From Pseudomonadota bacterium (GTDB lineage Bacteria > Pseudomonadota > Alphaproteobacteria > Rhodobacterales > Rhodobacteraceae): DNA of 64,000 nt. The first letter of the stretch is position 1. Every line of letters begins with the position of its first letter. Positions 3,976-20,954 of this stretch are shown here, piece after piece. The position numbers and the translations under genes are program-made. The stretch covers positions 1 to 64,000 of the forward strand of contig JAJZVD010000001.1 of NCBI GenBank assembly GCA_021845805.1. The letters are read 5' to 3'. A model generated the notes under the pieces. That model had not been told where the DNA came from, did no database searches, and was given only the letters and a program-made list of their open reading frames with translations.

Positions 3976-4788
3976 TCAGTCGCCCCGGAACACGGGTGTC
4001 TCCTTCGCCGCGAAGGCGCGGTAGGCGCGCTCGAAATCCTTCGTCTGCATGCAGATCGCCTGCGCCTGCGCTTCCGCCTCGATCGCCTGTTCCAGCCCCA
4101 TGTTCCATTCCTGGTTCAGTTGCGTCTTGGTGATCCCATGGGCGAAGACCGGCCCCGCCGCGATCCGGTCCGCCAGCGCGCGCGCCTCGGCCTCAAGCGC
4201 CTCTGGCGGGTGCAGCGCGTTCCAGAACCCCCAGGCCGCGCCGTCCTCGGCCCGCATCACCCGCCCGGTGTAAAGCAGCTCCGCCGCGCGGCCCTGGCCG
4301 ATGATGCGCGGCAGCATCGCGCAGGCCCCCATGTCGCAGCCCGCAAGCCCGACCCGGGTGAAGAGAAAGGCGCATTTCGCAGCCGGTGTGGCCAGCCGCA
4401 GATCCGCGGCCATGGCGATGATCGCGCCCGCGCCCACGCAGATGCCATCTACCGCCGCGATGACGGGCTTGCCGCAGCCGATCATCGCCTTGACCAGATC
4501 GCCGGTCATGCGGGTGAAGGCCAGCAGCCCCTTCATGTCCATGCCCACCAGCGGCCCGATGATGTCATGCACATCCCCGCCCGAGCAGAAGTTGCCGCCA
4601 TTCGAGGCAAAGACGATCACGTCCACATCCTCGGCATAGACCAGCGCGCGAAAGAGGTCGCGCAGCTCGGCATAGCTGTCGAAGGTCAGCGGGTTCTTGC
4701 GGTCGGGCCGGTTCAGCCGGACCCAGCCGGTCCGCCCCTCGACGGACCACAGGAAGTGGCGGGCCCGGTAATCGGCAAGCGTGGTCAT
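3976..4788 (-). CDS. Enoyl-CoA hydratase/isomerase family protein
   Basis: A 270-aa crotonase-fold protein. The oxyanion-hole segments are [15 protein letters not shown] near residue 65 and [20 protein letters not shown] near 115. These enzymes hydrate or rearrange enoyl-CoA esters, and some hydrolyse ring C-C bonds. In the anthranilate operon it probably acts on the alicyclic CoA ester formed by the fused monooxygenase/reductase, for hydration or ring opening. Its start overlaps the MarR stop by 4 bp. The repeat at 3901-3954 lies between it and the next gene. Confidence 0.9.
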
Positions 4789-5243
4789 CGGGTCTCTCCC
4801 TGTCGGGCGCGGCGCAGGATCTCGGTCAGTGCGTCCAGGTCGGCATCGGTCAGCGTGGCGAACAGGCGGTTCACCTCGCGCTCATGGGCGGCGGCCAGCG
4901 TCTCGAACTGCGCAAGCCCCGCCTCGGTCAGCGCCACCAGGATGGTGCGCCGGTCGCCGGGCTTCGGTGTGCGCCGGGCCAGCCCGTCCTGCTCCAGCCG
5001 GTCCACCACGGCGGTGGCATTGCCGTTCGACACCAGCAGCATCCGGCTCAGCTCGCTCATGCTGATCCCCTCGCTGCGCCGCCAGAGGGCCGCCATCACG
5101 TCGAAGCGGGGCAGGGTGGTGTCGTGGTTTACCCGCAGGAACTCGCGCAGGGTATTCTCGGCATGGCGCGTCACGCCCAGAAGCCGGATCCAGGCCTTCA
5201 GGCGGCGTTTCGACAGCGGGTCGGGGCGGTCGTCCAGCGTCAC
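4785..5243 (-). CDS. MarR-family transcriptional regulator of the anthranilate operon
   Basis: About 152 aa with the winged-helix core [20 protein letters not shown] followed by the wing [20 protein letters not shown]. MarR proteins that control aromatic-CoA pathways are often released from DNA by the CoA ester. It probably autoregulates this operon through the palindrome at 8317-8344. The GTG at 5241-5243 is chosen as start because it overlaps the stop of the upstream SDR gene (GTGA), matching the ATGA overlaps of the neighbours. The reading frame is open further upstream, but that part is the shifted reading of the SDR gene. Confidence 0.9.
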
Positions 5244-5980
5244 AGTTCGCCCCCCGCGATGGTGATGGCCTGTCCGTTCATCCCCTCCGACCCCGGCCCG
5301 CAGAGCCAGAGCGCGGCCGCCGTCACCTCGGCGGGCTGGATCAGGCGGCCCTGGGGGTTCAGCCCTTCCAGCGCGGCGCGCGCCTCGGCCGGGCTGCGGC
5401 CGGTCTTCTCCACGATGACCGCAATGGAATGATCGGTCATCGGCGTGTCCAGAAAGCCGGGGCACAGCGCGTTCACGGTCACCGGCCGCTTCGCGACCTC
5501 GAACGCGAGCGAGCGCACCATGCCCACCACCCCATGCTTGGCCGCGGCATAGGGCGCGACCTTGGCATAGCCCTTCAGCCCCGCGGTCGAGGCAACCGCG
5601 ATCAGCCGCCCCCAGCCCGGCACCTGGTTCAGCCCGTCGCGCAGCGTCAGGAACGCGCCGGTCAGGTTCACCGAGATCATCGCGTTCCACTGGGCCAGCG
5701 TGGTGCGCGCCATCACCCCGCTGTCGGCAGCGCCCGCATTGGCGATCACGATGTCGCAGGGCCCGGCGGCGGCGAACATCGCGGCGACCGAGGCTTCGTC
5801 GGTCACGTCGGCTTCCACCCAGCGGATGCCCGGCGCGCTGTCGGCCACCGCTTCCAGCGCCGCGCGGCGGCGGCCTGCAATCACCACCTCGGCCCCTGCG
5901 GCGGCAAAGCCGCGCGCCATGTCCGCCCCCGCGCCAGAGCCCCCCCCGGTGATCAGCGCGCGCCTGCCTGCCAAGGTCAT
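5240..5980 (-). CDS. Short-chain dehydrogenase/reductase (SDR)
   Basis: A 246-aa classical SDR. It has the nucleotide-binding motif [14 protein letters not shown] near residues 11-24, the NAG-type motif [10 protein letters not shown] near 83, and the catalytic serine and YAAAK near residues 140-160. It ends with the typical IAGGEL. It probably oxidises a 3-hydroxyacyl-CoA intermediate with NAD(P)+ after the hydratase step. The start overlaps the monooxygenase/reductase stop by 4 bp. The role is inferred from operon position. Confidence 0.9.
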
Positions 5981-8262
5981 ACCCGGATCGCCTCCTGCTG
6001 TCGTTCCCTGAGCCGCCGCGCCTGATCCCGCCCGGCGAGGTAGGGCAGGGGCCAGGCGGTGCCCTCGTCTCCCATCGCCACGGCGGCGTGGAGCGTCCAG
6101 TATGGGTCGGCCAGGTGCGGGCGGGCAAGACAGACCAGATCGGCGCGCCCCGCCATCAGGATCGAGTTCACATGGTCGGGTTCATAGATGTTGCCGACCG
6201 CCATGGTGGCGATCCCCGCCTCGTTGCGGATGCGATCGCTGAAGGGGGTCTGGAACATCCGGCCATAGATCGGGCGGGCGTCGGTGGAGGTCTGCCCCGC
6301 CGACACGTCGATGATGTCGGCCCCCGCGGCGCGGAAGGCGCGGGCGATCTCGACCGCCTCCGACGGGGTCACGCCCCTCTCGCTCACCCAGTCGTTCGCG
6401 CTGATCCGCACGCTCATCGGCTTTTGCGCAGGCCAGGCCGCGCGCATGGCGGCAAAGACCTCCAGCGGGTAGCGCAGCCGGTTTTCGAGGCTGCCGCCAT
6501 AGGCATCACTGCGCCGGTTCGAGATCGGCGACAGGAAGGACGAGATCAGGTAGCCGTGCGCCGCGTGCAATTCGATCATGTCGAAGCCCGCGCGTGCGGC
6601 CATCCTGGTGGCCGCCACGAAGTCCGCCGTCACCCGGTCCATGTCGGCGCGGTCCATCGCCTTCGGCACCGCGTTGGCCGCGCTCCAGGCGATGGCCGAG
6701 GCCGAGATGGTGGGCCAGTTGCCCGCCGCCAGCGGTGCGTCACCCTCTTCCCAACCGACCTGCGTCGACCCCTTGCGCCCCGAATGGCCGATCTGGCAGC
6801 AGATCTTCGCGGCCGTCTCGGCATGGACGAAATCCACCAGCCGCCTCCACGCCGCCTCGTGTTCGGGGGCGTAAAGGCCGGGGCAGCCGGGGGTGATGCG
6901 GCCATCGGGCGAGACACAGGTCATCTCGGTATAGACAAGGCCCGCGCCACCCTTGGCGCGTTCGGCATAATGGACGAAATGCCAGTCGGTCGGGCAGCCA
7001 TCCACCGCCTTGTACTGCGCCATGGGCGAGACGACGACGCGGTTTGCCAGCGTCATGTCGCGCAGCCGGAAGGGCGCGAACATCGGCGCGCGCCCGGGAG
7101 TGCCGCCCGCCTGCGTCTGGAACCAGTCTTCCGCCGCGCGCAGCCAGTTCGGGTCGCGCAGGCGCAGGTTTTCATGGCTGATGCGCTGGCTGCGGGTCAG
7201 CAGCGAATAGGCGAACTGCAACGGCGGCATGTCCAGATACCGCTCGACCTCCTCGAACCATTCCAGGCTGTTGCGTGCGGCCGACTGCAGCCGCAGCACC
7301 TCGACCCGGCGTTCGGCCTGATAGCGTTCGAAGGCGCCCTGCAAGGTCGGTTCCGAATGCAGGTAATCGGCCAGCGCGATGGCGCTGTCGAAGGCCAGCC
7401 TGCTGCCCGATCCGATCGAGAAATGCCCCGTCGCCGCGGCATCGCCCATCAGCACGACGTTTTCATGATACCACGTTCCGCAGATCACCCGCGGGAACTG
7501 CATCCAGACCGCCGAGCCGCGCAGATGCGCCGCGTTCGACATCAGCGCGTGCCCGCCCAGATGACGCTCGAAGATCCGGCGGCAGGTCTCGACCGTCTCT
7601 TCCTTCGTCATCTGTGCGAAGCCCCAGCGGTCCCAGGTGTCGGGCAGGCATTCGACGATGAAGGTCGCGGTGCTGTCGTCGAACTGGTAGACATGCGCCC
7701 AGACCCAGCCGTGTTCGGTCTTCTCGAAGATGAAGGTGAAGGCGTCGTCGAACTTCTGATGGGTTCCAAGCCAGACGAACTTGCACCTGCGCAGGTCGAT
7801 GTCGGGCTTGAACGCGTCGGCATATTCCTTGCGCACCAGGCTGTTGATGCCGTCGCAGCCGACCACGATGTCGTAGTCCTTGCGATACTCCTCGGCGGTG
7901 CGGAATTCGGTTTCAAAGCGCATGTCCACGCCCAGCTCGCGCGCGCGGGCCTGCAGCAGGATCAGCATCTGCTTGCGCCCGATCCCGGCAAAGCCGTGCC
8001 CGCCCGACACGGTGCGGTGACCGTTGTGGACCACGGCGATGTCGTCCCAGTAGGCGAAATGGCTGCGGATCGCTTCGGTCGACACGGGGTCATTCTTCTC
8101 CATCCGACCCAGCGCGTCGTCCGACAGCACCACCCCCCAGCCGAAGGTGTCGTTGGCGCGGTTGCGCTCCAGCACGGTGACCTCGTGCGACGGGTCGCGC
8201 AGCTTCATGCTGATCGCGAAATAGAGGCCCGCCGGGCCGCCGCCGAGACAAAGCACCTTCAT
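5977..8262 (-). CDS. abmA: 2-aminobenzoyl-CoA monooxygenase/reductase (fused)
   Basis: A 761-aa fusion. Residues 1 to about 390 form an FAD aromatic hydroxylase, with GGGPAGLYF at 7-15 and the FAD-binding [16 protein letters not shown] near 271-286. Residues from about 395 to the end form an Old Yellow Enzyme-like FMN reductase ([48 protein letters not shown]). In Azoarcus evansii such a protein hydroxylates 2-aminobenzoyl-CoA and then reduces the ring. The N-terminal half resembles salicylyl-CoA 5-hydroxylase, an alternative name often given to it. The start at 8262 is chosen because [10 protein letters not shown] begins the Rossmann fold; the open frame extends upstream across the operator palindrome. 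It is the first gene of the operon. Confidence 0.92.
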
Positions 8263-8316
8263 TTCCGGTCTCTCCGCTGCATTCGTTGGACGGAGTGTGG
8301 CATTGCCCCGAAGCCC

Positions 8317-8344
8317 TTTCAAGTCTGAAATTTCAAACTTGAAA
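8317..8344. promoter_or_regulatory. 28-bp palindromic operator candidate for the anthranilate operon
   Basis: The outer arms TTTCAAGT and ACTTGAAA are perfect inverted repeats and the inner part TGAAATTTCA is itself self-complementary. Only one symmetric pair of bases breaks the 28-bp dyad. It sits 55 bp upstream of the abmA start, between divergent genes. Size and symmetry fit a MarR dimer site, and the MarR gene at 4785 is the obvious candidate binder. Confidence 0.7.
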
Positions 8345-8453
8345 TGATGAATGCGCGCCACGCCCGCTTGACCGTCGGGCCCGGCGGCGCCACTGTCGCG
8401 CGGCCCCTGCGTCGGGGCTGTTCCACATGCTCCGCTTGCGGAAAGGATGTTTC

Positions 8454-8984
8454 GTGCGTTGCCATCGTCTGTCCCTTGCCCTGTTCCTGATCCTGCCGCT
8501 GGCCGGACCCGCGCCGGCCGATACGGGCCTTCCCGGGGGCGCCACCTCGCTGCAGGAGACCTATGACAGTTGGACGGTCAGCTGCCGCATGGCCGATGGC
8601 GGCGGCAAGACGGTGAAGCAATGCGCGCTGAGCCAGACCCAGATCGACAAGTCCAGCGGCAAGCACCTGCTGGAGGTCGATGTGGCGCCGAACGGCACCG
8701 GCGCCGCTGTCACGCTGGTGCTGCCCTTCGGGCTTGATCTGGGGCAGGGCGTGGCGCTGCAACTCGATGCCGCGGCGCCCAGTGCGCCGGTTCCCTTTGC
8801 CACCTGCCTGCCGGTCGGCTGCATCGCCCGCGCGGCGCTGGATGACAAGGCGCTGGCCGCCTATCGCGCGGGCAGCACGCTGCGGCTGAAGGCCCGGGCC
8901 GAGGGCGGCAACGGCATCGACTTCACGGTGGGGCTGAAGGGCTTTTCGGCCGCCTTCGACCGCGTCGTGGCGTTGCTGAAATGA
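8454..8984 (+). CDS. IalB-family (invasion-associated locus B) exported protein
   Basis: About 176 aa. An N-terminal signal peptide of positive residues and a leucine-rich core ends near PAPADTG. A mature IalB-like domain follows, with the motif SWTVSC, paired cysteines ([18 protein letters not shown]) and a C-terminal [12 protein letters not shown]. Function in free-living relatives is unknown; the Bartonella namesake affects erythrocyte entry. GTG 8454 is preferred because GGAAAGGA lies 6 nt upstream and it gives a standard signal peptide; an in-frame ATG at 8427 lacks a clear ribosome binding site. The gene is divergent from the anthranilate operon and overlaps the crotonase start by 4 bp. 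Confidence 0.82.
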
Positions 8985-9790
8985 GCGTGGATGTCTTCGC
9001 CCTTCCGCTGACCCGTCTGTCGCTGGCCGAGGCGCCCGGCGGTGTGCTGGACGTGCTGCTGAACCGCCCGGAAAAGCGCAACGCGCTGGATTCGGCGGCG
9101 GTGGAGGATCTGGTGGCGCTGTTCGACGCGGTGCCGCGGGCGGGTGTCCGCGCCGTGGTGCTGCGGGCGGCGGGTGACCATTTCTGCGCCGGGCTGGATC
9201 TGGTGGAACACCACAAGGCCGACCGCAGCCCGGCTGCGTTCATGCACCTCTGCCTGCGCTGGCACGAGGCGTTCAACAAGATGGAATACGGCGGCGTTCC
9301 CGTCATCGCCGCGCTGAAGGGTGCGGTGGTGGGCGGCGGGCTGGAGCTTGCCTCGGCGGCCCATATCCGCGTCGCGGATGCCACGACGTACTTCGCCCTG
9401 CCGGAAGGCCAGCGCGGGCTGTTCACCGGCGGCGGTGCCACGATCCGGGTGACCCAGATGATCGGCAAGCCCCGCACCGTGGACATGATGCTGACCGGCC
9501 GCGTCTACCGGGGGCAAGAGGCGCTGCCCCTTGGCTTCTGCCAGTATCTGACCGATGGCAGTTCCGACACGCTGGCGCATGAGCTGGCGGCGAAGGTGGC
9601 GCAGAACCTGCCGCTGTCGAATTTCGCCATCACCTCGGGCGTGTCGCATGTGCAGAACATGTCGGCGCTGGATGCCTCTTATGCCGAGGCGGTGCTGGCG
9701 GGGGTGGTCAACACCCAGCCCGATGCGCGCGAACGGCTGGCGGCCTTCGCCGACAAGACCGCTGCGCGGGTCCGGCCCGATCAGGGCTGA
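8981..9790 (+). CDS. Crotonase/enoyl-CoA hydratase family protein
   Basis: A 269-aa crotonase-fold protein. The oxyanion-hole segment [13 protein letters not shown] is near residues 67-79, [18 protein letters not shown] near 110-127, and [14 protein letters not shown] near 137. The glutamate in the last segment sits where crotonases keep one catalytic acid. It probably acts on an acyl-CoA, but the substrate is unclear. The ATG overlaps the IalB-family stop (ATGA), so the two are co-translated. Being divergent from the anthranilate operon across a shared palindrome, it could belong to the same regulon. Its 3' end overlaps that of the convergent mntR by 10 bp. Confidence 0.88.
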
Positions 9791-10212
9791 CGGGTGAGGA
9801 AGGCTGCGAAGGCGGTCAGCGTGGCGTCCGAGACATAGTGCTCGATCCCCTCGGCGTCGGTCTCGGCGGCCTCGGGGGGAACGCCCACGGCCACCAGCAG
9901 ATCCACCACCAGCCGGTGACGGCCGCGCACGCGCTCGGCCATGCCGCTGCCCAGTTCGGTCAGGAATACCCCGCGATAGGGCCGCGAGACGGCCAGCCCC
10001 TCGCGCTTCAGCCGGGCGACGGCCTTGGTGGCGGTGGGGTGGGTCACGCCCATCAGCCGCGCGATGTCGGTGATCCGCGCCTCGCCATGCGCGCGGATCA
10101 GATCGTCGATCATCTCGGTATAGTCTTCCAGCAGGGCCTGCGACTGCGCCGTGCGGGTCTGGCTGAACCGTTCGGCCTGCACCGGGGTGTCGTCGAAGTG
10201 GTCCTCGGTCAT
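9781..10212 (-). CDS. mntR: MntR, manganese-responsive DtxR-family regulator
   Basis: 143 aa with an N-terminal winged helix ([30 protein letters not shown]) and a C-terminal metal-binding and dimerisation domain ([19 protein letters not shown], then [13 protein letters not shown] with Glu and His ligands). It represses Mn(II) uptake when manganese is plentiful. It is divergent from mntH, and a palindrome overlapping the mntH promoter is the expected target. ATG 10212 is chosen over an in-frame ATG at 10269, since the extra residues are alanine-rich and not part of the family. Confidence 0.93.
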
Positions 10213-10267
10213 CACGGCTCCTTCCGCGGCAGCGGCCGCGCGGCCGGAGTGCAAGTGGGCCGACAAC

Positions 10268-10278
10268 ATATAGCCTCG
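10268..10278. promoter_or_regulatory. Possible MntR half-site upstream of mntR
   Basis: The 11 bases ATATAGCCTCG differ by one base from ATGTAGCCTCG, the left part of the complete box upstream of mntH. The second arm is poorly matched. It may allow weak autoregulation of mntR. Confidence 0.3.
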
Positions 10279-10339
10279 TCATCATCCTGTAAACCGGGCA
10301 TCAATTCGGTGTGATGCCGCGGGCACGGGGTCGTGCCGC

Positions 10340-10367
10340 TTGACAGAAATGTAGCCTCGGCTACATA
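10340..10367 (+). promoter_or_regulatory. mntH promoter with overlapping MntR box
   Basis: A consensus -35 TTGACA at 10340-10345 is followed after 16 bp by TACATA at 10362-10367. An 18-bp inverted repeat, ATGTAGCC-TC-GGCTACAT, at 10349-10366 covers the spacer and -10. This is where a repressor would block polymerase, and a DtxR-family regulator gene is next door. mntH starts 30 bp further on. Confidence 0.8.
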
Positions 10368-10396
10368 TCCGTCAACAGACAGGATAACGTACCGAC

Positions 10397-11689
10397 ATGA
10401 ACCCTGCGTCCCTCAGTGCCAAGGCCGAGCGCGGCATTGCCGAGGCCCTGGCGGGTACCCGCCGCGGACCGCGTGTGGCGCTGCTGTTTGCGGGCCCCGC
10501 GGTGATCGCCTCGATCGCCTACATGGACCCGGGCAACTACGCCACCAACATCCAGGCCGGGGCGGGCTATGGCGTCGCGCTCTTGTGGGTGGTGGTGCTG
10601 GCCAACCTGATCGCCATGCTGTTCCAGGGCCTGTCGGCGCGGATCGGCATCGTGACCGGGCGCAATCTTGCCGAACTCTGCGCCCAGCATTTCCCGCTAC
10701 CGCTGGTGCTGCTGATGTGGTTTGTCAGCGAGATTGCCGCCATGGCGACCGACCTGGCCGAGTTTCTGGGCGGGGCGCTGGGGCTTTCGCTGCTGCTGGG
10801 CCTTCCGCTGATGTGGGGGATGGCGATCACCGCGGTCGTCACCTACGGCATCCTGCTGGTCGAAGGCCGCGGGTTCCGCCCGATGGAGATCGTGATCGGC
10901 GCCTTCGTCGCGGTCATCGGCCTGTGCTACCTGGTCGAGCTGTTCATCGCCCCGCAGGACTGGTCGGCGGTGGCACGCGGCATGGTCACGCCCTCGCTGC
11001 CCGATGCTGCCGCGCTGACGGTGGCGGTGGGGATCATCGGCGCCACGGTGATGCCGCATGCGATCTATCTGCATTCCAGCCTGACCCAGGGCCGCGCCGT
11101 GGTGCGCAACGAGGGCGAGCGGCGGCGCCTGCTGCGGTTTTCCAACATCGAGGTGGTCGTGGCGCTGACTGTGGCGGGCATGATCAACATGGCGATGGTG
11201 CTGATGGCGGCCAGCGCCTTCCATGCGGGCCACAGCGAGGTGGCCGAGATCGAGACCGCCTATCACGCGCTGACCCCGCTGCTGGGCTCGGCTGCGGCGG
11301 CGGCCTTCCTGGTCTCGCTGATCGCCTCGGGCATCTCCAGCTCGGTCGTGGGCACCATGGCGGGGCAGGTCATCATGCAGGGCTTCGTGCGCTTCAACAT
11401 CCCGCTCTGGGTGCGGCGGTTGGTGACGATGATCCCGGCCTTCGTGGTGGTGGCGATGGGCGTCAACCCGACCCATGCGCTGGTCATGAGCCAGGTGGTG
11501 CTGAGCCTTGCGCTGCCCGCGCCGGTGCTGGCGCTGGTGTGGTTCATCGGGCGGCGCGAGGTGATGGGCGACTATGTCAGCCGCCCCGTGGTGCGTCTGG
11601 CCGCCCTGTCCGGGGCCCTGGTGATCCTGGCGCTGAACGCGATCCTGCTGGCCCAGACGGCGGGGGTCGAGATCCCCTTCCTGGGCTGA
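10397..11689 (+). CDS. mntH: MntH, Nramp-type Mn(II)/proton symporter
   Basis: A 430-aa integral membrane protein with eleven or so hydrophobic segments. The first transmembrane signature is YMDPGNYATNIQ near residues 37-48, and the sixth-helix signature MPHAIYLHSSLTQG is near 221-234; both form the metal site in Nramp transporters. It imports Mn(II), and perhaps Fe(II), driven by protons. Regulation by the divergent MntR is supported by the palindrome overlapping its promoter. It faces the end of the allophanate hydrolase gene. Confidence 0.95.
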   Translation: MNPASLSAKAERGIAEALAGTRRGPRVALLFAGPAVIASIAYMDPGNYATNIQAGAGYGVALLWVVVLANLIAMLFQGLSARIGIVTGRNLAELCAQHFPLPLVLLMWFVSEIAAMATDLAEFLGGALGLSLLLGLPLMWGMAITAVVTYGILLVEGRGFRPMEIVIGAFVAVIGLCYLVELFIAPQDWSAVARGMVTPSLPDAAALTVAVGIIGATVMPHAIYLHSSLTQGRAVVRNEGERRRLLRFSNIEVVVALTVAGMINMAMVLMAASAFHAGHSEVAEIETAYHALTPLLGSAAAAAFLVSLIASGISSSVVGTMAGQVIMQGFVRFNIPLWVRRLVTMIPAFVVVAMGVNPTHALVMSQVVLSLALPAPVLALVWFIGRREVMGDYVSRPVVRLAALSGALVILALNAILLAQTAGVEIPFLG

Positions 11690-11707: not shown

Positions 11708-13519
11708 TCAGCGCGGCCCCCCCGCGGCCAGGAACGCCCGCCAGCCGCCGTGGGCGGTGATGTCGGTCGCGCCTTCGGTCGCCAGCGCCTCGACCAGGAA
11801 GCCCTGCACACGCCGCCCGTCGGCCAGGTCCAGCGTGCCGATCGACAGCGGCGCGGGCACGTCGCACAGGAATTCGCCCGCGCGCGCCACCGGCAGCGCC
11901 CAAAGCTCCAGCGCGATGCCGGCGCCCCCGGCGGCCACCCGCAACAGGCCCGGCCGCCAGGGCGGGCCCCCGGCCAGCGCGTAGAAGCGGTAGGTCGCGG
12001 CGGTGGCCGTGGCTTCGAGGAACCGTCCGCCGCGGCTGGTCAACTGATGGTTCAGCGGCAGGCCCGACATATGCGCCCCGACCACCGCCACCACCATCTC
12101 GCCCGGCAGGGCCGCCGCAGACAGGGGCGGCGGCGCGGGCAGGGCCACGCCGGTCGCACCGAGGGGCGCGCCGCCCGCTGCCTGCAACCGGGTGCCAAGG
12201 GCCGCCAGCAGCGCATCCTGCCCCGCGCGCGCCAACAGCGTCAGGCTGCCCGGCCGCCCGTCGGTCCGCCAGCCGGTCGGCACGGCCAGGCCGCAGAGGT
12301 CAAGAAGGTTGACGAAGTTTGTATAGGTGCCCAGCCGCGAATTCGGGGTCACCGGATCGGCGGCCAGATCGGCGGTGCCATAGAAGGTGGGGATCGTCGG
12401 CACGCACAGAAGGTCGGCCCCGGCCAGCAGCGGCGCGACCCTCCGCTTCAGCTCGGCCAGCCGGTAGAAGCCGCGGAAGGCATCCGCCGCGCTCAACCGG
12501 TCGGCCGCGCCGATGATCTGGCGGGTGACCGGGTGGATCGCCTCGGGGTTGGCGCGCAGCAGGGGTTCCACCACCACCATCCGTTCGGCCACCCACGCGC
12601 CCTCGTAGAGCATCGCGGCCACCTCGTAGAGCGGGGTGAAATCGACCTCGACCACCTTCGCGCCCTCGGCGGCCAGCAGGTCGAGCCCGGCGGCGAAGCT
12701 GGCGGCCTGCGCCGTATCGCCGAAGAAGATGCGGCTGGCGGCATCGGGCACCGCCACCGTCAGCGCGGGCGGGGCCGCGGCCAGCGGCGGCGCGGCGCAG
12801 GGCCGGGCATAGGCGTCGGCCGGGTCATGGACCGCGGCCGCGGCAAAGGCGGCCCAGGCGTCGGGCACCGTCAGCGCGAAGATCGACACCGTGTCCAGCG
12901 TCCGGCAGGCGGGCACGACCCCGGTGGCCGACAGCGCGCCCAGCGTGGGCTTAAGCCCCACGATGTTGTTCAGCGCCGCGGGCACCCGGCCCGAACCCGC
13001 CGTATCGGTGCCCAGCGCAAAGCTGACAAGCCCGCGCGCCACCGCCACCGCCGACCCTGCGCTGGAGCCGCCCGGCACGATGGCGGGATCAAGCGCGTTC
13101 TTCGGCACCGGATAGGGCGAACGCACGCCGACAAGCCCGGTGGCGAACTGGTCAAGGTTGGTCTTGCCCAGCACGATCGCCCCCGCCCGGCGCAGCGCGG
13201 CCACCACGAAGGCATCGGCCGCGGGCGCATAGGCATAGGCCGGGCAGGCCGCCGTGGTGGGCAGGCCCGCCACGTCGATATTGTCCTTCACCGCGAAGGG
13301 AATCCCCCAGAGCGGCCGGGCCGGGTCGGGCGCGCCCAGCGCCCGGGCTTCGGCCTGCACCTCGTCAAGCGGACGCAGGGCCAGGAAGATGCCGGGGTCA
13401 TCCGCGGCCTCGATCCGGCGGTAAAGCTCGGCCATCAGGGCGGCGGGGGTCAGCCCCGCGGCATAGGCGGCCCGAAGCGCCCCGAAATCGAGGCTGAGTG
13501 CGGCGAGGTCTACGGTCAT
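11708..13519 (-). CDS. atzF: Allophanate hydrolase AtzF
   Basis: A 603-aa amidase-signature enzyme with an added C-terminal domain, as in AtzF. The Ser-cisSer-Lys triad is visible as K78 (GIPFAVKDN), S152 (GGSSAGS) and S176 (TDTAGSGR). It hydrolyses allophanate; the C-terminal domain (LPLNHQLTSRGGRFLEA onward) completes conversion to CO2 and two ammonia. There is no biotin-dependent urea carboxylase nearby, so allophanate must come from elsewhere, most simply from biuret through the BiuH encoded in this operon. ATG 13519 overlaps the cupin stop by 4 bp. It is the last gene of the operon. Confidence 0.92.
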   Translation of the reverse strand: MTVDLAALSLDFGALRAAYAAGLTPAALMAELYRRIEAADDPGIFLALRPLDEVQAEARALGAPDPARPLWGIPFAVKDNIDVAGLPTTAACPAYAYAPAADAFVVAALRRAGAIVLGKTNLDQFATGLVGVRSPYPVPKNALDPAIVPGGSSAGSAVAVARGLVSFALGTDTAGSGRVPAALNNIVGLKPTLGALSATGVVPACRTLDTVSIFALTVPDAWAAFAAAAVHDPADAYARPCAAPPLAAAPPALTVAVPDAASRIFFGDTAQAASFAAGLDLLAAEGAKVVEVDFTPLYEVAAMLYEGAWVAERMVVVEPLLRANPEAIHPVTRQIIGAADRLSAADAFRGFYRLAELKRRVAPLLAGADLLCVPTIPTFYGTADLAADPVTPNSRLGTYTNFVNLLDLCGLAVPTGWRTDGRPGSLTLLARAGQDALLAALGTRLQAAGGAPLGATGVALPAPPPLSAAALPGEMVVAVVGAHMSGLPLNHQLTSRGGRFLEATATAATYRFYALAGGPPWRPGLLRVAAGGAGIALELWALPVARAGEFLCDVPAPLSIGTLDLADGRRVQGFLVEALATEGATDITAHGGWRAFLAAGGPR

Positions 13520-13866
13520 TCTGCGGCCTTCTGCGCGGTGAAGCGCACCGGGCGCTCCCATTGGATCAGCACGACGCAGCCCGCGTCGGACCAGACGGAA
13601 TGGCGGCTGCCTTCGGGGTTCAGCACAAGGCTGCCCACCGGATAGGTGCCGCGTTCGTCGCTTTGGCTGCCTTCCAGCACGTAGATGGTTTCCAGCCCCG
13701 TGTGCTGGTGTTCCGGCACGCCGGAGCCGGGCGCGTAGCGCAAGAGCGCGACCGCCGGTTCGCCCTGCCGGATCGGCAGGATCTCCACCCCCTCGCGGAA
13801 GGGCTGGAAGGGCAGGCGGTGCCATTCGCCGTCTTTCAGACGTTCAAGGTGGATCGGGTCGGTCAT
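13516..13866 (-). CDS. Small cupin-domain protein of the biuret operon
   Basis: A 116-aa single-domain cupin (ChrR-like). The first cupin motif has histidines in [18 protein letters not shown] near residues 71-88, and the second reads [14 protein letters not shown]. The His and Glu residues can bind one metal ion. Function is unknown: it could be a sensor or stabilising protein, or an enzyme acting on a ureido compound. It overlaps both neighbours by 4 bp (the hydrolase upstream, atzF downstream), so it is a fixed part of the unit. Confidence 0.85.
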
Positions 13867-14528
13867 TGCAGCGCCTCCAGTACGGCGTCGGTCGTGGCGG
13901 TCCAGCCCACGATGGCGCCCTGCGCGCGGATCATCGCGAGCGTGGCGGCCTTGAAGGCGGGAAAGTAGCTTTCGGTGGCGTCCTCGGCCAGCAGGCAGTC
14001 AAAGCCGCGGTCATTGGCCTCGCGCATCGTGGTCTGCACGCAGACCTCGGTGGTGACGCCCGCGAAGATCAGCGTCCGGGTGCCCAGCCGCGCCAGATGG
14101 TCGGCCAGAGGCGTTGCGTAAAAGGCGCCCTTGCCCGGCTTGTCGATCACGATCTCGTCCGGCAGCGGGGCCAGCGCGGGGACGATGGCGGCGCCGGGTT
14201 CGCCTGCGATCAGGATGCGCCCCATGGGCCCCGCGTCGCCGATCCGCAGCGCAGGCGCGCCGCGCAGGCGCTTGGCAGGCGGGCAATCCGACAGGTCGGG
14301 CCGGTGGCATTCGCGCGTGTGGATCACCGGCAGCCCGGCCGCGCGGGCGCCCGCGATCAGCCGCGCCACGGTGGGCACGATGGCCTGAAGGGGGGCCACG
14401 TCATTGCCCAGCGCGGCGCCGAAGCCGCCGGGCTCGATGAAGTCGCGCTGCATGTCGATCACGATCAGCGCGGTGCTGGCGGGATCGAAGGCGAAGGAAA
14501 AGGGCAGGGCGCCCGGAATGGCGGGCAT
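13863..14528 (-). CDS. Cysteine hydrolase, BiuH paralogue (candidate triuret hydrolase)
   Basis: A 221-aa isochorismatase-fold hydrolase with the full triad: D25 (VIDMQ), K130 (IDKPGKG) and C163 (TTEVCVQTT). It shares with BiuH the segments THTRE-like, [18 protein letters not shown] and [10 protein letters not shown], but differs in the substrate-facing stretch ([14 protein letters not shown] where BiuH has [14 protein letters not shown]). Lying with BiuH and AtzF, it probably cleaves a related ureido compound. Triuret, whose hydrolysis feeds biuret to BiuH, is the best candidate; ureidoacrylate-type substrates are an alternative. The start overlaps the ATPase stop (ATG at 14526-14528). Confidence 0.85.
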
Positions 14529-16063
14529 CAGGCGTGGCCTCCCATGTGATGGCCGATGGTGGCGATGTCGGCCCCCGCGGCGGGGGTTTCGTAGCTGATG
14601 CGGCCCTCTGACATCACAAGCACCCGGTCGGCGAGTTCAAGCACCTCGTCGAGGTCTTCCGACATCAGAAGGACGGCGGCACCCGCGTTCCGCGCCGCCA
14701 TGATCCGGGCGCGGATGTCCGACACGGCGGTGAAATCCAGCCCGAAGCAGGGGTTCGATATGACCAGCAGGTCCACCGAGCCGGTCAGCTCGCGCGCCAG
14801 CACGGCCCGCTGCACGTTGCCGCCCGACAGCGCCGCGATGGGCGCATCCAGCGAGGCGGTCTTGACCTTGAAGCCCGCAACCAGCGCCTCGGCCTGCCTG
14901 CGCAGGGCGCCGGGGGCCAGCCAGAAGCGGGTCCCGCCGCCGCGGGTGTCGAAGCTGCGAAAGCCGATGTTCTCGGCCACCGACATGCGCGGGGCGCAGG
15001 CGTTCTTCAGCGGCTCCTCGGGCAGGTAGCGGATGTTCATCTGGCGCTCTTCGGTCCGGGTGGCGTGATAGGGGCGGCCCCGCACCGTCATGGCGCCCGC
15101 GCGCAGCGGCCGCTGGCCCGTCAGCATCTCCATCAGTTCCATCTGGCCGTTGCCGGATATGCCCGCGATGCCCACGATCTCGCCCGCGCGGACCTCAAGC
15201 CGGTCGATGGCAATCTCCTTCAGGCCCGAGCGGTCGAGGGCGCGCGCGCCCGCCAGTTCCAGCACGCTCGCGCCAGGCTGCCCGGTGCGGGCGGCGGGCG
15301 CGGGCAGGCGCGCCTCGCCCATCATCATCGCGGCCATGTCGGCGTGCGACAGGTCGGACACGCGGCCCTGGCCCACCAGCCGCCCCCGCCGCAGCACCGA
15401 CACGGCATCGGCGAAGGCGGTCACCTCGCGGAACTTGTGGGTAATCATCAGTACGGTGATGTCCCCGGCCGCGCAGAGCCCGCGGACATGGCCCAGCACC
15501 TCGTCGGCCTCGTCCGGGGTCAGCACCGAGGTCGGCTCGTCCAGGATCAGGAAGCGGCGGCCAAGGTAAAGCTGTTTCAGGATCTCCAGCTTCTGCTTTT
15601 CCCCCGCCGCCAGCGCCCGCACCGGCCGGTCCAGCGGGACGCGGAAGGGCATCCGGTCCATGAAGGCGGCCAGCGCCGCCCGTTCGCGCCGCCAGTCGAT
15701 GACGGCGGGCGTATCCCTGCGGCTGATGACAAGGTTTTCCGCGGCGGTCAGCGAGGGGACCAGCGTGAAATGCTGGTAGACCATGCCCAGCCCCAGCGCA
15801 TGGGCGGCGCGCGGGTCGGGCACCTGCACCTCGCGCCCCGATACCATCATCTGCCCGGCGCTGGCGCGGTAGAAGCCCATCATGCATTTCACCAGCGTGG
15901 ACTTGCCCGCGCCGTTTTCGCCAAGAAGCGCGAGGAAGCTGCCCGCCGGGACGCTGATCGACACGTCGTCCAGCGCGGTGAAGCCGCCAAAGCGCATGGT
16001 CATGCCCAGCGTCGCCACCGCAAGCGCGCCTGTCGCGGGCAGGGCGTCCTGTCCGATGATCAT
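14528..16063 (-). CDS. ABC transporter ATPase, two fused nucleotide-binding domains
   Basis: 511 aa with two ATPase domains. The first has Walker [10 protein letters not shown] near residue 53 and Walker [10 protein letters not shown] near 172. The second has the degenerate nucleotide site [11 protein letters not shown] near 300 and signature [18 protein letters not shown]. This arrangement is typical of sugar and BMP-type nucleoside importers. With two permeases and a BMP-family binding protein in the same operon, it powers uptake of the operon's substrate, probably biuret or related ureido compounds. The second-domain Walker B region reads [13 protein letters not shown], unusual but common in this subfamily. 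Confidence 0.92.
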
Positions 16064-16743
16064 GGCAGCGCCGCGATCAGGCTCGCGCTGTCAGAGACCG
16101 CGCCGAAGACGCCGCCCTGCATCGTGACCATCTTGATGGCGGCGGCATGGTTGCCCGCATCGGTCGCGCCGCAGCAGTCGGACAGCAGCAGGCATTCAAA
16201 GCCGCGGTCGTTGGCCTCGCGCATCGTGGTGGACACGCAGACATCGGTGGTGATGCCGGTCAGGATCAGGTTCTCGATGCCCCGGGTGCGCAGCATCAGC
16301 TCGAGGTCGGTGGCGCAGAAGCTGCCCTTGCCGGGCTTGTCGATGATCGGCTCGCCGGGTTCGGGGGACAGCTCGGGGATGATGTCCCAGCCGGGCTCGC
16401 CGCGGACCAGGATGCGGCCGCAGGGGCCCGCGTCGCCGATCCCCGCGCCGATCTGCCGGCTGCGCCAGCGCTTGTTGGCGGGCAGGTCCGACAGGTCGGG
16501 GCGGTGCCCCTCGCGCGTGTGGATGATGTGGTAGCCCTTGGCGCGCATCGCGGCCAGAACGGCCTTGATCGGGCCGATGGGCGCCCGTGTCAGCGACAGG
16601 TCATAGCCCATCTTGTCGACATAGCCGCCGGTGCCGCAGAAATCGGTCTGCATGTCGATGATGACCAGCGCGGTGTTCTGGGGGCGCAGTTCGCCGTTCC
16701 AGGGCCAGGCATAGGGGGTAGAGGCGATGGTGGGCATGGTCAC
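16060..16743 (-). CDS. biuH: Biuret hydrolase BiuH
   Basis: A 227-aa isochorismatase-fold amidohydrolase. Its triad D30 (IIDMQ), K136 (IDKPGKG) and C169 (TTDVCVSTT) falls at exactly the spacing of the Asp36/Lys142/Cys175 triad known for the Rhizobium leguminosarum enzyme, offset by six residues. The segments [30 protein letters not shown] and [10 protein letters not shown] also agree with that enzyme as I remember it. It converts biuret to allophanate and ammonia, which AtzF (11708-13519) completes. The start abuts the permease stop, and its stop overlaps the ATPase start. An annotation as generic isochorismatase would hide this role. Confidence 0.9.
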
Positions 16744-17664
16744 TCACTTGGTGATGGAAAGCTCGCCCGGCGCGCCCGCGGTGGCGCGGTTGGGCGAAGA
16801 GGTTGCGATCAGCACGCCCAGCGTCAGCACATAGGGCGCGGCGTAGTAGAGGTAGTATCCTTCGGACAGCCCGACCGATTGCAGCGCCGGACCCAGCGCG
16901 CCCGCGCCGCCGAACAACAGCGCCGCCCAGACGCAGTTCAGCGGGTTCCAGCGGGCGAAGATCACCAGCGCCACCGCCATCAGCCCCTGCCCGGACGAGA
17001 CGCCCTGGCTCCACGCGCCGGGGTAGAAGAGCGACAGATAGGCCCCCGCCACCCCCGCGAAGGCCCCGCCGGCCGCCGTGGCGCCGATGCGGATCGCGTT
17101 CGGGCGCAGGCCCATGGCGCGGGCCGCGTCGGTGCTGTCGCCCACCACTCGCAGGATCAGCCCGACCCGCGTCGCGCGCAGCATCCAGGCCATGCCCAGC
17201 GCCAGCGCGATGCCCGCGAGGAAAAGCACGTTCACCGTCAGCGCCGCCTGCACCTGCGGGATGCCCGACCAGAACCCCAGGTCGATCGCGGGCAGGCGGG
17301 GCGCCACCGGCTGGACATAGGGCGTGCCGAAGAAGAACGCGAGCCCCGTGCCCAGCAGCATCAGCGCGATGCCGATGGCGATGTCGTTCACCTTGGGCAG
17401 CGAGCAGATCAGCCCGTGAAGAAGGCCGAAGATCACTCCCGCCAGCGCCGCCGCCAGCACACCCGCCCAGGCGCTGCCGCTTTCATAGGCGACCGCGTAG
17501 CCCGCCATCGCGCCGAACACCAGCGTGCCTTCCAAGCCCAGGTTGATGCGGCCCGCGCGTTCGGTCAGCACCTCGCCGAGGCTGACGAAAAGGAAGGGGG
17601 TCGAGACCCGGATCGCCCCGCCGAGGATGGCGACCGGCACCGCCCACAGGCCAAGATCGGTCAT
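16744..17664 (-). CDS. ABC transporter permease (BMP/nucleoside-type importer), subunit 2
   Basis: A 306-aa membrane protein with about eight to ten hydrophobic segments, of the branched-chain/nucleoside permease superfamily. It begins LWAVPVAILGGAIRVSTPFLF and carries GRINLGLEGTLVFGAMAGY and a conserved cytoplasmic loop, RATRVGLILRVVGDSTDAARAMGL. It pairs with the upstream permease, which its start overlaps by 4 bp, and with the ATPase at 14528. It probably moves a small polar nitrogen compound across the inner membrane. Confidence 0.9.
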   Translation of the reverse strand: MTDLGLWAVPVAILGGAIRVSTPFLFVSLGEVLTERAGRINLGLEGTLVFGAMAGYAVAYESGSAWAGVLAAALAGVIFGLLHGLICSLPKVNDIAIGIALMLLGTGLAFFFGTPYVQPVAPRLPAIDLGFWSGIPQVQAALTVNVLFLAGIALALGMAWMLRATRVGLILRVVGDSTDAARAMGLRPNAIRIGATAAGGAFAGVAGAYLSLFYPGAWSQGVSSGQGLMAVALVIFARWNPLNCVWAALLFGGAGALGPALQSVGLSEGYYLYYAAPYVLTLGVLIATSSPNRATAGAPGELSITK

Positions 17665-18767
17665 GATCTTCTCCAGCGTTCGGGGGCAAAGAGACGGAAC
17701 CGGCCATAGAGCGTGTCCGACACAAGGATGACGACGAAGACCACCGCCTTCAGCACCAGGATGGTGGCATCGGGCAGGTCCATCCGCCGCTGGACAAGGC
17801 CCGACGACGCCTCGAACCCGGCCAGAAGCAGCGCCACGGGGATCACCGCCAGCGGATTCTGCCGCGCGAGGAAGGCGATCAGGATGCCGGTATAGCCATA
17901 GCCCGCCGCCAGCGAGGCGTTGGCCGAGCCCTGCACCGCCGCCACCTCGAAGAACCCCGCCAGACCCGCGAAGGCGCCGCCCAGCGCGGTGAAGCCCAGG
18001 ATCAGCCGCCCCACCGGCAGGCCCTGCACCTGCGCCGCGCGCACGTTGTCGCCCGCGATCCGGGCCGCGAAGCCCCAGGTGGTCCGCTCGATCAGCACCC
18101 AGGTCAGCACGCAGCAGACCAGCGCCACCACCAGCCCCCAGTGAACGTCCATCCCCGGAATGTCGCCCACCCGCAGCGCGTCGGGCAGCGGCGCGGTCGA
18201 GGGCTTGTTCAGGCTGGCCGGATCGCGCAGCGGGCCTTCGATCAGGTGGTTCATCAGCGCGATGCCGATATAGGCCATCAGCAGGCTTGCGATGGTTTCA
18301 TTCACCCCCCGGTAATGCCGCAGTGCGCCGACCGCCCCGATCCAGAGAGCCCCCACCGCGGCGCCCGCCGCCGCCATCAGCGGCAGCGCCAGCGCAGGCG
18401 GCACCCCGCCCAGCCACACGCCCAGCGCCCCGGTGGCGGTGCCGCCCAGCACGATGGCGCCTTCGCCGCCGATCACCACCAGCCCCAGCCGGGCCGGCAG
18501 CGCCACGCAAAGCGCCGCAAAGAGCAGCGGCGCCGCGCGGGACAGCGTGTTGGCCCAGGAAAAGGCGGTGCCGAAGCCCGCCTTGTAGACCAGCGCGTAG
18601 AACTCCACCGGCGATTTGCCCAGCGCCAGCAGCAGCAGCCCGAAGAGCGCCAGCCCCGCCGCCAACGCGCCCAGCGGCAGCACCACGCCCTCGGCCCGTC
18701 GGGCCAGCGGGGCCAGTCCGTCGACCCCGCTGCGGCGCTGCGCCCTTGCCATCGCCTGATCGGTCAT
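17661..18767 (-). CDS. ABC transporter permease (BMP/nucleoside-type importer), subunit 1
   Basis: A 368-aa membrane protein. Its cytoplasmic start carries RAQRRSG, followed by ten or so hydrophobic helices and the family loop GFAARIAGDNVRAAQVQGLP. It is the longer of the two permeases, as is usual for this transporter class. ATG 18767 is chosen because it follows the binding-protein stop by 11 bp and gives a normal N-terminus; the frame stays open upstream, but that part is a shadow of the binding-protein gene. Confidence 0.9.
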   Translation of the reverse strand: MTDQAMARAQRRSGVDGLAPLARRAEGVVLPLGALAAGLALFGLLLLALGKSPVEFYALVYKAGFGTAFSWANTLSRAAPLLFAALCVALPARLGLVVIGGEGAIVLGGTATGALGVWLGGVPPALALPLMAAAGAAVGALWIGAVGALRHYRGVNETIASLLMAYIGIALMNHLIEGPLRDPASLNKPSTAPLPDALRVGDIPGMDVHWGLVVALVCCVLTWVLIERTTWGFAARIAGDNVRAAQVQGLPVGRLILGFTALGGAFAGLAGFFEVAAVQGSANASLAAGYGYTGILIAFLARQNPLAVIPVALLLAGFEASSGLVQRRMDLPDATILVLKAVVFVVILVSDTLYGRFRLFAPERWRRS

Positions 18768-18778
18768 CGTCCCCACCC

Positions 18779-19897
18779 CTAGGAGGTGGAGCCCAGGACA
18801 CCCTCGACCAGATAGTTCATGCTCTCGAGCGCCACATCGGTTTCCAGGTAGACCTTGCCCGCGGGGATGACCTCTTTGCCGGTGTTGTCCTTCATCGGCC
18901 CCTTGAAGACCGAGAAGCCGCCCTTGAGGATCGCGGCCTGGGTATCGGCGAACTGCTTGCGGGCGGCGTCCGAGACGGCCGGGCCAAGCGGCGACATCTT
19001 CACGAAGCCCTCGGCCAGCCCGCCGCGCACGAAGTTGTCGATCGTGCCGCCTGCCATCACCTTGGTCAGGAAGTCGGTATAGACCTTGCCCCAGTTCCAT
19101 TCCGCGCCGGTCAGATACTTGTCGGGGGCCAGCGCCGACTGGTTGGCATGGTAGCCGCAGATATAGGCCCCGCGCCCGGCGGCGGTCTGCATCACCACCT
19201 TCGGGCCGTCGACATGGGCGGTGATCACGTCGCACCCTGCGTCGCACAGCGCGTTGGTGGCCTCGGCCTCCTTCACGGGCATGGACCATTCGCCGGTGAA
19301 GATCACCTGGCAGGTGATCGAGGGGTCCACCGCCCGCGCGCCCAGAAGGAAGCAGTTGATGTTTTCCAGCACCTGCGGAATGGGCTTGGCGGCGACGAAG
19401 CCGATCTTCTTCGACTTGGTGGCATGGCCTGCGCAGATGCCGTTCAGATAGACGGCCATGTCGATGTAGCCGAAGTAGGAGCCCACGTTCTTCGGGTCCT
19501 TGTCGGTCCAGAGCCCGCCGCAATGTTCAAAGCGGACGGTCTTGTACTTCGGCGCCAGTTCCAGGATGAACGGATCGAAATAGCCGAACGAGGTCGGGAA
19601 CAGCAGCGTTGCCCCGTCGAAATTGATCATCGATTCCATCGTCTTGGTGACATCGACGGTCTCGGCAACCTTCTCTTCCTCGACCACCGTGACGCCCGGC
19701 ATGGATTTCAGCGCCGCCGCGCCCTCGGCATGCGACTGGTTGTAGCCGTAGTCGTCCTTGGCGCCGACATAGATGAAGCCCACCGTCAGCTTGTCGGCCG
19801 CGCGCGCGGCCAGCGGCAGTGACGAAAGCGCGGTGACACCGGCAAGACCGGCGGTGCCGCGCAGGAAGCCGCGGCGGGAAAGCGGAAGATGGGACAC
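18779..19897 (-). CDS. BMP-family periplasmic substrate-binding protein
   Basis: 372 aa. A twin-arginine-type signal (SRRGFLRG, then a hydrophobic stretch ending ARAADKL) precedes a Med/PnrA-like type I binding fold: VGFIYVGAKDDYGYNQSHAEG, FPTSFGYFDP, GYIDMAVYLNGICAGHA. This family usually binds purine nucleosides, but here it sits first in an operon with BiuH and AtzF. Biuret or another ureido or amide compound is therefore the likely ligand. GTG 19897 is the start because GGAGG lies 9 nt upstream and the open frame before it has no signal-like sequence. Confidence 0.9.
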   Translation of the reverse strand: MSHLPLSRRGFLRGTAGLAGVTALSSLPLAARAADKLTVGFIYVGAKDDYGYNQSHAEGAAALKSMPGVTVVEEEKVAETVDVTKTMESMINFDGATLLFPTSFGYFDPFILELAPKYKTVRFEHCGGLWTDKDPKNVGSYFGYIDMAVYLNGICAGHATKSKKIGFVAAKPIPQVLENINCFLLGARAVDPSITCQVIFTGEWSMPVKEAEATNALCDAGCDVITAHVDGPKVVMQTAAGRGAYICGYHANQSALAPDKYLTGAEWNWGKVYTDFLTKVMAGGTIDNFVRGGLAEGFVKMSPLGPAVSDAARKQFADTQAAILKGGFSVFKGPMKDNTGKEVIPAGKVYLETDVALESMNYLVEGVLGSTS

Positions 19898-20048
19898 GGT
19901 CGGAAGCCTCCGGGGTGCAGGGTTGGCCTTGGATCGGCGCCGCGCATCGCGGCGGTTCGAGGCCACGCTAGGGCCGTTGTGGTGCTGCTGTCGTCTGCTA
20001 AGTTTGCACCGATCCGCTGCATGAAACGCAGCGCTCCGGGGAATCGCG

Positions 20049-20954
20049 ATGCGCCATCTGACGCCCTTGCACTACATCGACGCCATCGTGCGGGCGGGCT
20101 CGATCCGCAAGGCGGCCGAGACGCTGGCCATCACCTCGACCGCGCTGAACCGCCGGGTGCTGGCGCTGGAAGAGGAACTGGGCGTGCAGATCTTCGAGCG
20201 GCTGCCGCGGGGCGTGCGGCTGTCGACGGCGGGGGAACTGCTGATCCACCACATCCGCAACCAGGTATCGGATTTCGAGCGGCTGAAATCGCGCATCGCC
20301 GATCTGGCGGGCGAACGGCGCGGGCATGTGTCGATCGCCTGTTCGCAGGCGCTGCTGCCCTATTTCCTGCCCGAACAGATCGCCGCCTATCGCGCCAACC
20401 ATCCGCTTGTCACCTTTTCGGTCCTGCTGCGTGACCGGGCGGCGGCGGAGCAGGCGCTGGTGGATCATTCCGTGGATCTGGCGCTGGTCTTCGAACCGGT
20501 GCGGCTGTCGGAATTCCAGGTGCTGGCTACGGCGCGGCAGGCCGTGCACGCGGTGATGCCGCCTGATCATCCGCTGGCGGCGCGCGGCACGGTGCGGCTT
20601 GCGGCCTGCGCGGAATATCCCCTGGCGCTGCCGACCGCGCATTACGGCGTGCGCCACCTGATCGACCTCGCGATCCGCCGCTCGTCGCTGGCCCTGCAGC
20701 CGGCCGTGGAATCGGACAGTTTCGAATTCCTGCGCCGCCTGCCCGCACATGAACGCATCATCGGCTTCCAGATCCCCATCGGGCTGCCGCTCGAGGACGG
20801 GGTGGACGGCATCGTCAGCCGCCCGATCGACCGGCGCGACGTGCCCGAAGGGCTGCTTTATCTGGGCCAATTGCGAGGCCGCACATTGCCCGTGGCGGCT
20901 GCCAAATTCGCGGGCCTGCTGGAACGGGCGATGGTCGACCGGTTCGGGGAATGA
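20049..20954 (+). CDS. LysR-family regulator, divergent from the biuret operon
   Basis: A 301-aa LysR-type protein. The helix-turn-helix GSIRKAAETLAITSTALNRR spans residues 18-37, and the effector domain follows from about residue 90. Divergent position 151 bp from the first gene of the operon suggests it controls that operon, as AtzR does for the cyanurate genes of Pseudomonas. The inducer is probably a ureido compound or a nitrogen signal. The shared interval 19898-20048 should hold both promoters, but I see no clear operator there. Confidence 0.9.
   Translation: MRHLTPLHYIDAIVRAGSIRKAAETLAITSTALNRRVLALEEELGVQIFERLPRGVRLSTAGELLIHHIRNQVSDFERLKSRIADLAGERRGHVSIACSQALLPYFLPEQIAAYRANHPLVTFSVLLRDRAAAEQALVDHSVDLALVFEPVRLSEFQVLATARQAVHAVMPPDHPLAARGTVRLAACAEYPLALPTAHYGVRHLIDLAIRRSSLALQPAVESDSFEFLRRLPAHERIIGFQIPIGLPLEDGVDGIVSRPIDRRDVPEGLLYLGQLRGRTLPVAAAKFAGLLERAMVDRFGE

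Follow-up and report, generated by a model that had tools for sequence, protein, structure and literature searches.

Triuret is a fertiliser impurity. Its hydrolase TrtA has been crystallised and assayed from Herbaspirillum sp. BH-1 (6XIX, 6XJE, 6XJ4), where it keeps company with biuH and atzF; as described in the part of PMC7948467 used here, the enzyme cuts a terminal C-N bond of triuret and releases ammonia and carboxybiuret. The latter is said there to lose CO2 either spontaneously, its half-life being about 20 min, or via TrtB, after which BiuH and AtzF finish the degradation. That paper also identifies the catalytic residues, lists six positions at which the TrtA and BiuH consensus differ, with F35 and N41 lying in a loop, and gives TrtA a slight activity on formylurea (ratio 2.9e-3).

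Clusters of the trtA-biuH-trtB-atzF type, accompanied by a bmpA-nupABC transporter, have been described in ammonia oxidisers (PMC12625717, in part); those of the AOB hold trtB, while comammox clusters are without it and the carboxybiuret step is there ascribed either to spontaneous decay or to an enzyme yet to be identified. Another related operon lies on plasmid pRL10 of R. johnstonii (leguminosarum) 3841, referred to below as L063, with the order transporter, BiuH, ATPase, TrtA, cupin. AtzF is also attributed to this operon in the portion of PMC7948467 that concerns it, and we did not find AtzF in 20.6 kb of L063. In a branch of the same pathway, AtzH (DUF3225) is proposed to decarboxylate 1,3-dicarboxyurea to allophanate, according to the relevant part of PMC6219798.

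Here we analyse a window of 64,000 nucleotides from a Rhodobacteraceae bacterium (assembly GCA_021845805.1, contig JAJZVD010000001.1), for which a preliminary description had proposed a second cysteine hydrolase, beside BiuH, acting on triuret. Its cluster is a further member of the type already published, as far as the part of PMC12625717 considered here describes it, with the same enzymes and type of transporter. With it, one more alphaproteobacterium is seen to have genes for the route from triuret to ammonia, a transporter among them.

Gene order of the operon

The gene in question (13863-14528, minus strand) starts with ATG and encodes a 221 aa protein. It stands in a row of eight closely packed minus-strand genes, which we infer to be co-transcribed, in the order BMP protein, two permeases, BiuH, ATPase, TrtA, cupin and AtzF. 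The BMP-family substrate-binding protein (18779-19966; Bmp, E 6.1e-40) displays a Tat-like signal (TAT_signal, 20.9 bits, below the cut-off of 22.7) and is followed by ABC permease 1 (17661-18788, the open frame used, its start codon not being settled) and ABC permease 2 (16744-17664), both matching BPD_transp_2. The ATPase (14528-16063), of the BMP/sugar type, has two ATPase domains, matched by ABC_tran in two stretches. The preliminary description had credited the locus with a transporter of its own; BMP-type ABC genes are indeed part of the operon, while their substrate comes from gene company only, which indicates that the system probably imports a ureide. NCBIfam matches of the transporter, the top one of the ATPase included, are below cut-off.

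The expected neighbours BiuH and AtzF are also present, both above cut-off. The BiuH-signature paralogue lies two genes upstream of trtA (16060-16743, minus strand); it scores 426 bits with NF050097 (cut-off 370), has its best PDB match in 6AZO, with an E-value of 5.5e-127, and has the BiuH residue at every position that discriminates TrtA from BiuH. Two genes downstream, atzF (11708-13519, minus strand) encodes an allophanate hydrolase with Amidase and AH_C domains, over the cut-off of PRK08186 and of TIGR02713 (761 bits against 511, with a query that had one extra upstream residue). The joints between trtA and the cupin gene and between the cupin gene and atzF are 4-base ATGA overlaps, the start of atzF overlapping the cupin stop. 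A LysR regulator recognised by profile matches (20049-20954, plus strand) diverges from the front end of the operon and, from its position, possibly regulates it.

Assignment of the 13863-14528 gene

The product of 13863-14528 matches the Pfam Isochorismatase family (E 5.3e-45) and is the top scorer of the six PF00857 matches in the genome. Its closest solved structures are TrtA 6XIX/6XJ4 (phmmer E 5.7e-88, far beyond chance), followed by weaker matches to BiuH 6XJM (7.6e-62) and RutB 8BKD (7.1e-26). It is 67% identical to TrtA 6XIX over 205 columns and 72% identical to its TrtA-like counterpart in R. johnstonii 3841, compared with 52% for the Rhodococcus BiuH 6XJM, 48% for the BiuH of the window as well as for that of L063, and 33% for E. 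coli RutB. An NCBIfam profile search of the protein returned no TrtA model among its matches, and both the BiuH model NF050097 (244 bits, cut-off 370) and the RutB model TIGR03614 (99.7 bits, cut-off 377.95) score it below their cut-offs.

The residues discriminate further. The triad D24/K129/C162 of TrtA 6XIX is found as D25/K130/C163, residue numbers in the window protein being those of TrtA plus one, which confirms the Asp/Lys/Cys triad shared with BiuH that had been read from the DNA at the outset. The 13 diagnostic residues D24, F29, F35, N41, E72, K129, K132, A134, E160, C162, Y187, Q202 and I205 (TrtA numbering) are all the same in the two proteins, and among them are the specificity set F35, N41, E160, Y187, Q202 and I205 plus A134 (7/7). 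The substrate-facing loop (residues 30-43 of the window protein, 14400-14441, minus strand), to which part of PMC7948467 assigns a role, contains F36 and N42, the equivalents of TrtA F35 and N41; since the BiuH of the window has two Tyr residues in their place, the loop does differ from that of BiuH as had been claimed. BiuH proteins such as 6AZO and 6XJM share the fold family and the triad, whereas at TrtA positions 35/41/134/160/187/205 they have Y/Y/S/D/T/V (6XJM with A for S) instead of F/N/A/E/Y/I. In an alignment of 230 rows F35, N41, E160, Y187 and Q202 are invariant in 145/145 TrtA-labelled rows, and the 80 BiuH-labelled rows carry Y (79), Y (80), D (80), T (79) and Q (78) at positions 35, 41, 160, 187 and 202, a split that is partly built in because the row labels were assigned by best match. 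N41, E160 and Y187 are three published positions at which the two sets of rows have no residue in common; both sets share Q202, and at A134 and I205 there is overlap for a few rows.

A tree was built from 184 of the 230 rows, with four other isochorismatases of the same genome omitted, rows of short loci thinned and GuuH absent. The window protein and TrtA 6XIX fall on a TrtA side of 105 rows (SH-aLRT 98), where the tree neighbours of the former are Paracoccaceae-like and alphaproteobacterial, while the window BiuH groups with 6XJM and the 3841 BiuH, apart from the TrtA side. E. coli RutB lies outside the TrtA side; its branch is very long, which leaves uncertain where it joins, and 84 of the 181 inner branches of this quick tree are weakly supported. 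The preliminary description had named placement with RutB or in an unrelated clade, together with inactivity on triuret, as the outcome that would count against a triuret hydrolase; in the tree the protein was found in neither place. Altogether, the identity to TrtA, the 13 residues and the tree support the original proposal, and we assign the gene with high confidence as trtA, one more representative of a family and of a cluster type that are both already known, whose substrate we infer to be triuret. In contrast to the gene of Herbaspirillum sp. BH-1, it is alphaproteobacterial and has a cupin gene right after it.

Other activities were weighed against this assignment. The 48% identity to the BiuH of its own operon and the common triad would suit another biuret hydrolase, or a generalist for biuret and triuret such as the Rhodococcus BiuH described in the corresponding part of PMC7948467; yet that generalist, 6XJM, has the BiuH set save for Ala at 134 and an engineered Ser and falls on the BiuH side of the tree, the window protein has F35/N41/A134/E160/Y187/I205 in place of the BiuH residues, and with a true BiuH already in the operon we regard such an activity as very improbable. 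Equally little weight goes to a hydrolase of guanylurea or of another ureide such as formylurea. Guanylurea hydrolases do belong to the same superfamily and reach 65% identity with other members (PMC9800807, in part), GuuH shares a published tree with TrtA and BiuH (PMC12625717, Fig 7), and formylurea is slightly attacked by TrtA itself; on the other side, in comparisons that covered TrtA, BiuH and RutB, the protein is 67% identical to TrtA and has all of its checked residues, and an operon with BiuH and AtzF is what triuret use would call for. Least credible, to the point of being negligible, is a RutB-like ureidoacrylate hydrolase: the Pfam family is common to RutB and some public records of relatives bear its name, but RutB is unlike the window protein at 10 of the 13 signature positions, stands apart in the tree, and the identified genes of the operon are not rut genes. 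On the basis of residues, profile scores and tree we set aside a second BiuH, as well as RutB and an isochorismatase of some unrelated kind.

If the window TrtA follows the published mechanism, the Cys163 thiolate, aided by Lys130 and Asp25, would attack a terminal carbonyl of triuret; ammonia would leave and hydrolysis of the thioester would yield carboxybiuret. Triuret would be preferred to biuret because of where Asn42, Glu161 and Ile206 place Gln203. Carboxybiuret would then lose CO2, spontaneously or enzymatically, to form biuret, which BiuH would turn into allophanate and AtzF into ammonia and CO2. The complete route from triuret to ammonia that had been proposed for this locus therefore has TrtA, BiuH and AtzF in place and one step more than was foreseen, as BiuH can act on the TrtA product only after its CO2 has been lost.

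Distribution of the cluster

Related loci were surveyed as the best 80 of at least 574 confirmed candidates, with neighbours identified by tblastn. Transporter genes accompany most of these 80 loci (ATPase in 78, permeases in 74 and 74, BMP protein in 71), and a BiuH apart from TrtA is matched in 75, of which 73 gave an ORF and one, in L043, is a contig-edge fragment. Within the locus DNA examined, a cupin is found in 60 and AtzF in 56, the AtzF counts including some AtzE-like partial matches; regulator matches are GntR in 50 and LysR in 19.

Two further enzymes recur. Of the best 80 loci, 15 have a cyanuric acid hydrolase within the triuret cluster or close to it, 13 of them with a cupin, and a formamidase-like gene is part of the cluster in 36 (tblastn), mostly between permease and biuH. 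L063 differs from the window in carrying both, at 7379-8431 and at 5650-6663 (NF009803), respectively; among the cluster genes of the window there is no cyanuric acid hydrolase.

Nearer to the window genome, trtA was found in 2/6 other genomes of the genus (G003, G004) and in 5/60 other genomes of a sample of relatives; proteins of G010 and G014 match the window TrtA at 46-49% and have BiuH-like residues. Among 399 sampled genomes of the G079 family there was no near-identical copy of the Herbaspirillum TrtA, the best match being 73%. TrtA-like genes of 66-67% also occur on Klebsiella and Enterobacter plasmids (e.g. NZ_CP056374), and many of the listed E. coli plasmid records contain a 56% relative annotated as cysteine hydrolase.

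A candidate for the carboxybiuret step

The cupin gene between trtA and atzF (13516-13866, minus strand) encodes 116 aa with Cupin_7 and ChrR-like matches. Its AlphaFold model has a mean pLDDT of 93.0, and a fold search placed the ChrR cupin domain first, followed by small cupins of mixed function. The residues H53, H55 and E59 of the HxHx3E motif and H89 of the second motif, putative ligands of a metal, are present in 61/61 cupins, 42 of which entered the structure alignment. In 60/60 cupin-bearing loci of the best 80, the cupin gene comes immediately after trtA in the same orientation, with a spacing of -1 to 198 bases. Cupin matches were detected in at least 15 of 385 alphaproteobacterial genomes, 12 of the 15, window included, being beside trtA, and the three away from trtA have the poorest E-values (1e-30 to 1e-21); still weaker matches (7e-17 to 5e-19) in G275, G079, G646 and G565 were left out of the count of dedicated cupins. 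Our literature search yielded no paper in which a cupin occurs together with either triuret or biuret hydrolase, and the word cupin is absent from the main text of PMC12625717.

We compared the cupin with AtzH. In the best 80 loci there is cupin alone in 60, AtzH alone in 10, neither in 10, some of which end at a contig edge, and both in none; in L050, L066 and L075 (the last two Pfam-checked) an AtzH-like gene fills the slot after trtA. Because the cupin label needed only 2 changes on the TrtA tree, which amounts to one or two events, we ran a whole-genome test on 64 trtA genomes. With overlaps counted once, these comprise a set of 35, 5 with a true TrtA match, 12/12 with a cupin beside trtA and 16 of the 102 from the sample of the G079 family, a genome being accepted with E <= 1e-70 to 6XIX, at least 72% identity to the window protein, or a tblastn match beside a cupin. 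As the best 7 to 14 candidates per genome were scored, the counts of trtA genomes, of cupins in the 385 genomes and of the AtzH background are lower bounds; the whole-genome AtzH tests scored all candidates. AtzH (PF11533) is present in 1/24 trtA genomes with the cupin vs 38/40 without, in 1/24 vs 18/19 when only Alphaproteobacteria are considered, and in 1/16 vs 7/8 when counted by genus. The exclusion holds within family f26 (G118 and G249 vs G087, G202, G210, G226 and G440), and the window genome, rated 100% complete in 109 contigs, has no AtzH-like gene (PF11533, E <= 1e-10). The alphaproteobacterial background of AtzH is at least 36/289; the absence of AtzH from cupin genomes is therefore unremarkable, and it is its presence in cupin-free trtA genomes that stands out. 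In cupin-free alphaproteobacteria, 4/18 AtzH copies are within 3 kb of trtA (G091, G154, G210, G440), the other 14 being farther away or on other contigs. The cupin/AtzH pattern largely follows descent.

By analogy with AtzH, the cupin may carry out the corresponding step on carboxybiuret; the folds of the two proteins are unrelated, that of AtzH being NTF2. We put forward, tentatively and at somewhat less than an even chance, that in alphaproteobacterial triuret operons, that of R. johnstonii 3841 included, a small mononuclear metal cupin would be the carboxybiuret decarboxylase, a non-homologous replacement standing in for AtzH/TrtB. Its constant place beside trtA in loci and most genomes, the conserved metal ligands and the split of AtzH between trtA genomes with the cupin (1/24) and those without (38/40) are consistent with this role, as is the finding that 15/15 Burkholderiaceae-type genomes have AtzH within 7.5 kb of trtA. 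Weighing against it are the mere 2 changes of the cupin label on the tree, the lack of a clear difference between 1/24 and the background, the 14 remote AtzH copies, which may serve other pathways, the lack of adjoining transporter genes at most of the corresponding trtA copies that were inspected, and nearest folds that are mixed and headed by a regulator domain. This last point, together with the top family matches to Cupin_7 and ChrR, would favour a ChrR-like role of the cupin in regulating the operon or in sensing metal for it. We consider that unlikely: the ChrR model TIGR02451 scores the protein at 50.1 bits, below its cut-off of 124.5, and only the later, cupin part of ChrR models is matched by these 116 aa, so the anti-sigma part is missing, while GntR and LysR matches in the 80 loci indicate that a regulator is often already present.

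With the cupin, the carboxybiuret step gains a concrete, readily testable candidate. Should it be the decarboxylase, the protein would link BiuH to TrtA and, in clusters that have one, to the cyanuric acid hydrolase. The family of TrtB is not stated in the portions of PMC7948467 and PMC12625717 used here, and TrtB is not named in the main text of PMC9118981 and PMC10649977; from the gene company in Burkholderiaceae-type loci, our guess is that it is AtzH-like.

Neighbouring genes

Just beyond atzF, genes for an MntR regulator and an MntH manganese transporter are arranged divergently (9781-11689). Further along, a cluster at 3976-8361 and 8981-9790 encodes a bifunctional salicylyl-CoA 5-hydroxylase/oxidoreductase (NF006101, 1289 bits), enoyl-CoA hydratases and an SDR, which suggests an aerobic aminobenzoyl- or salicylyl-CoA route.
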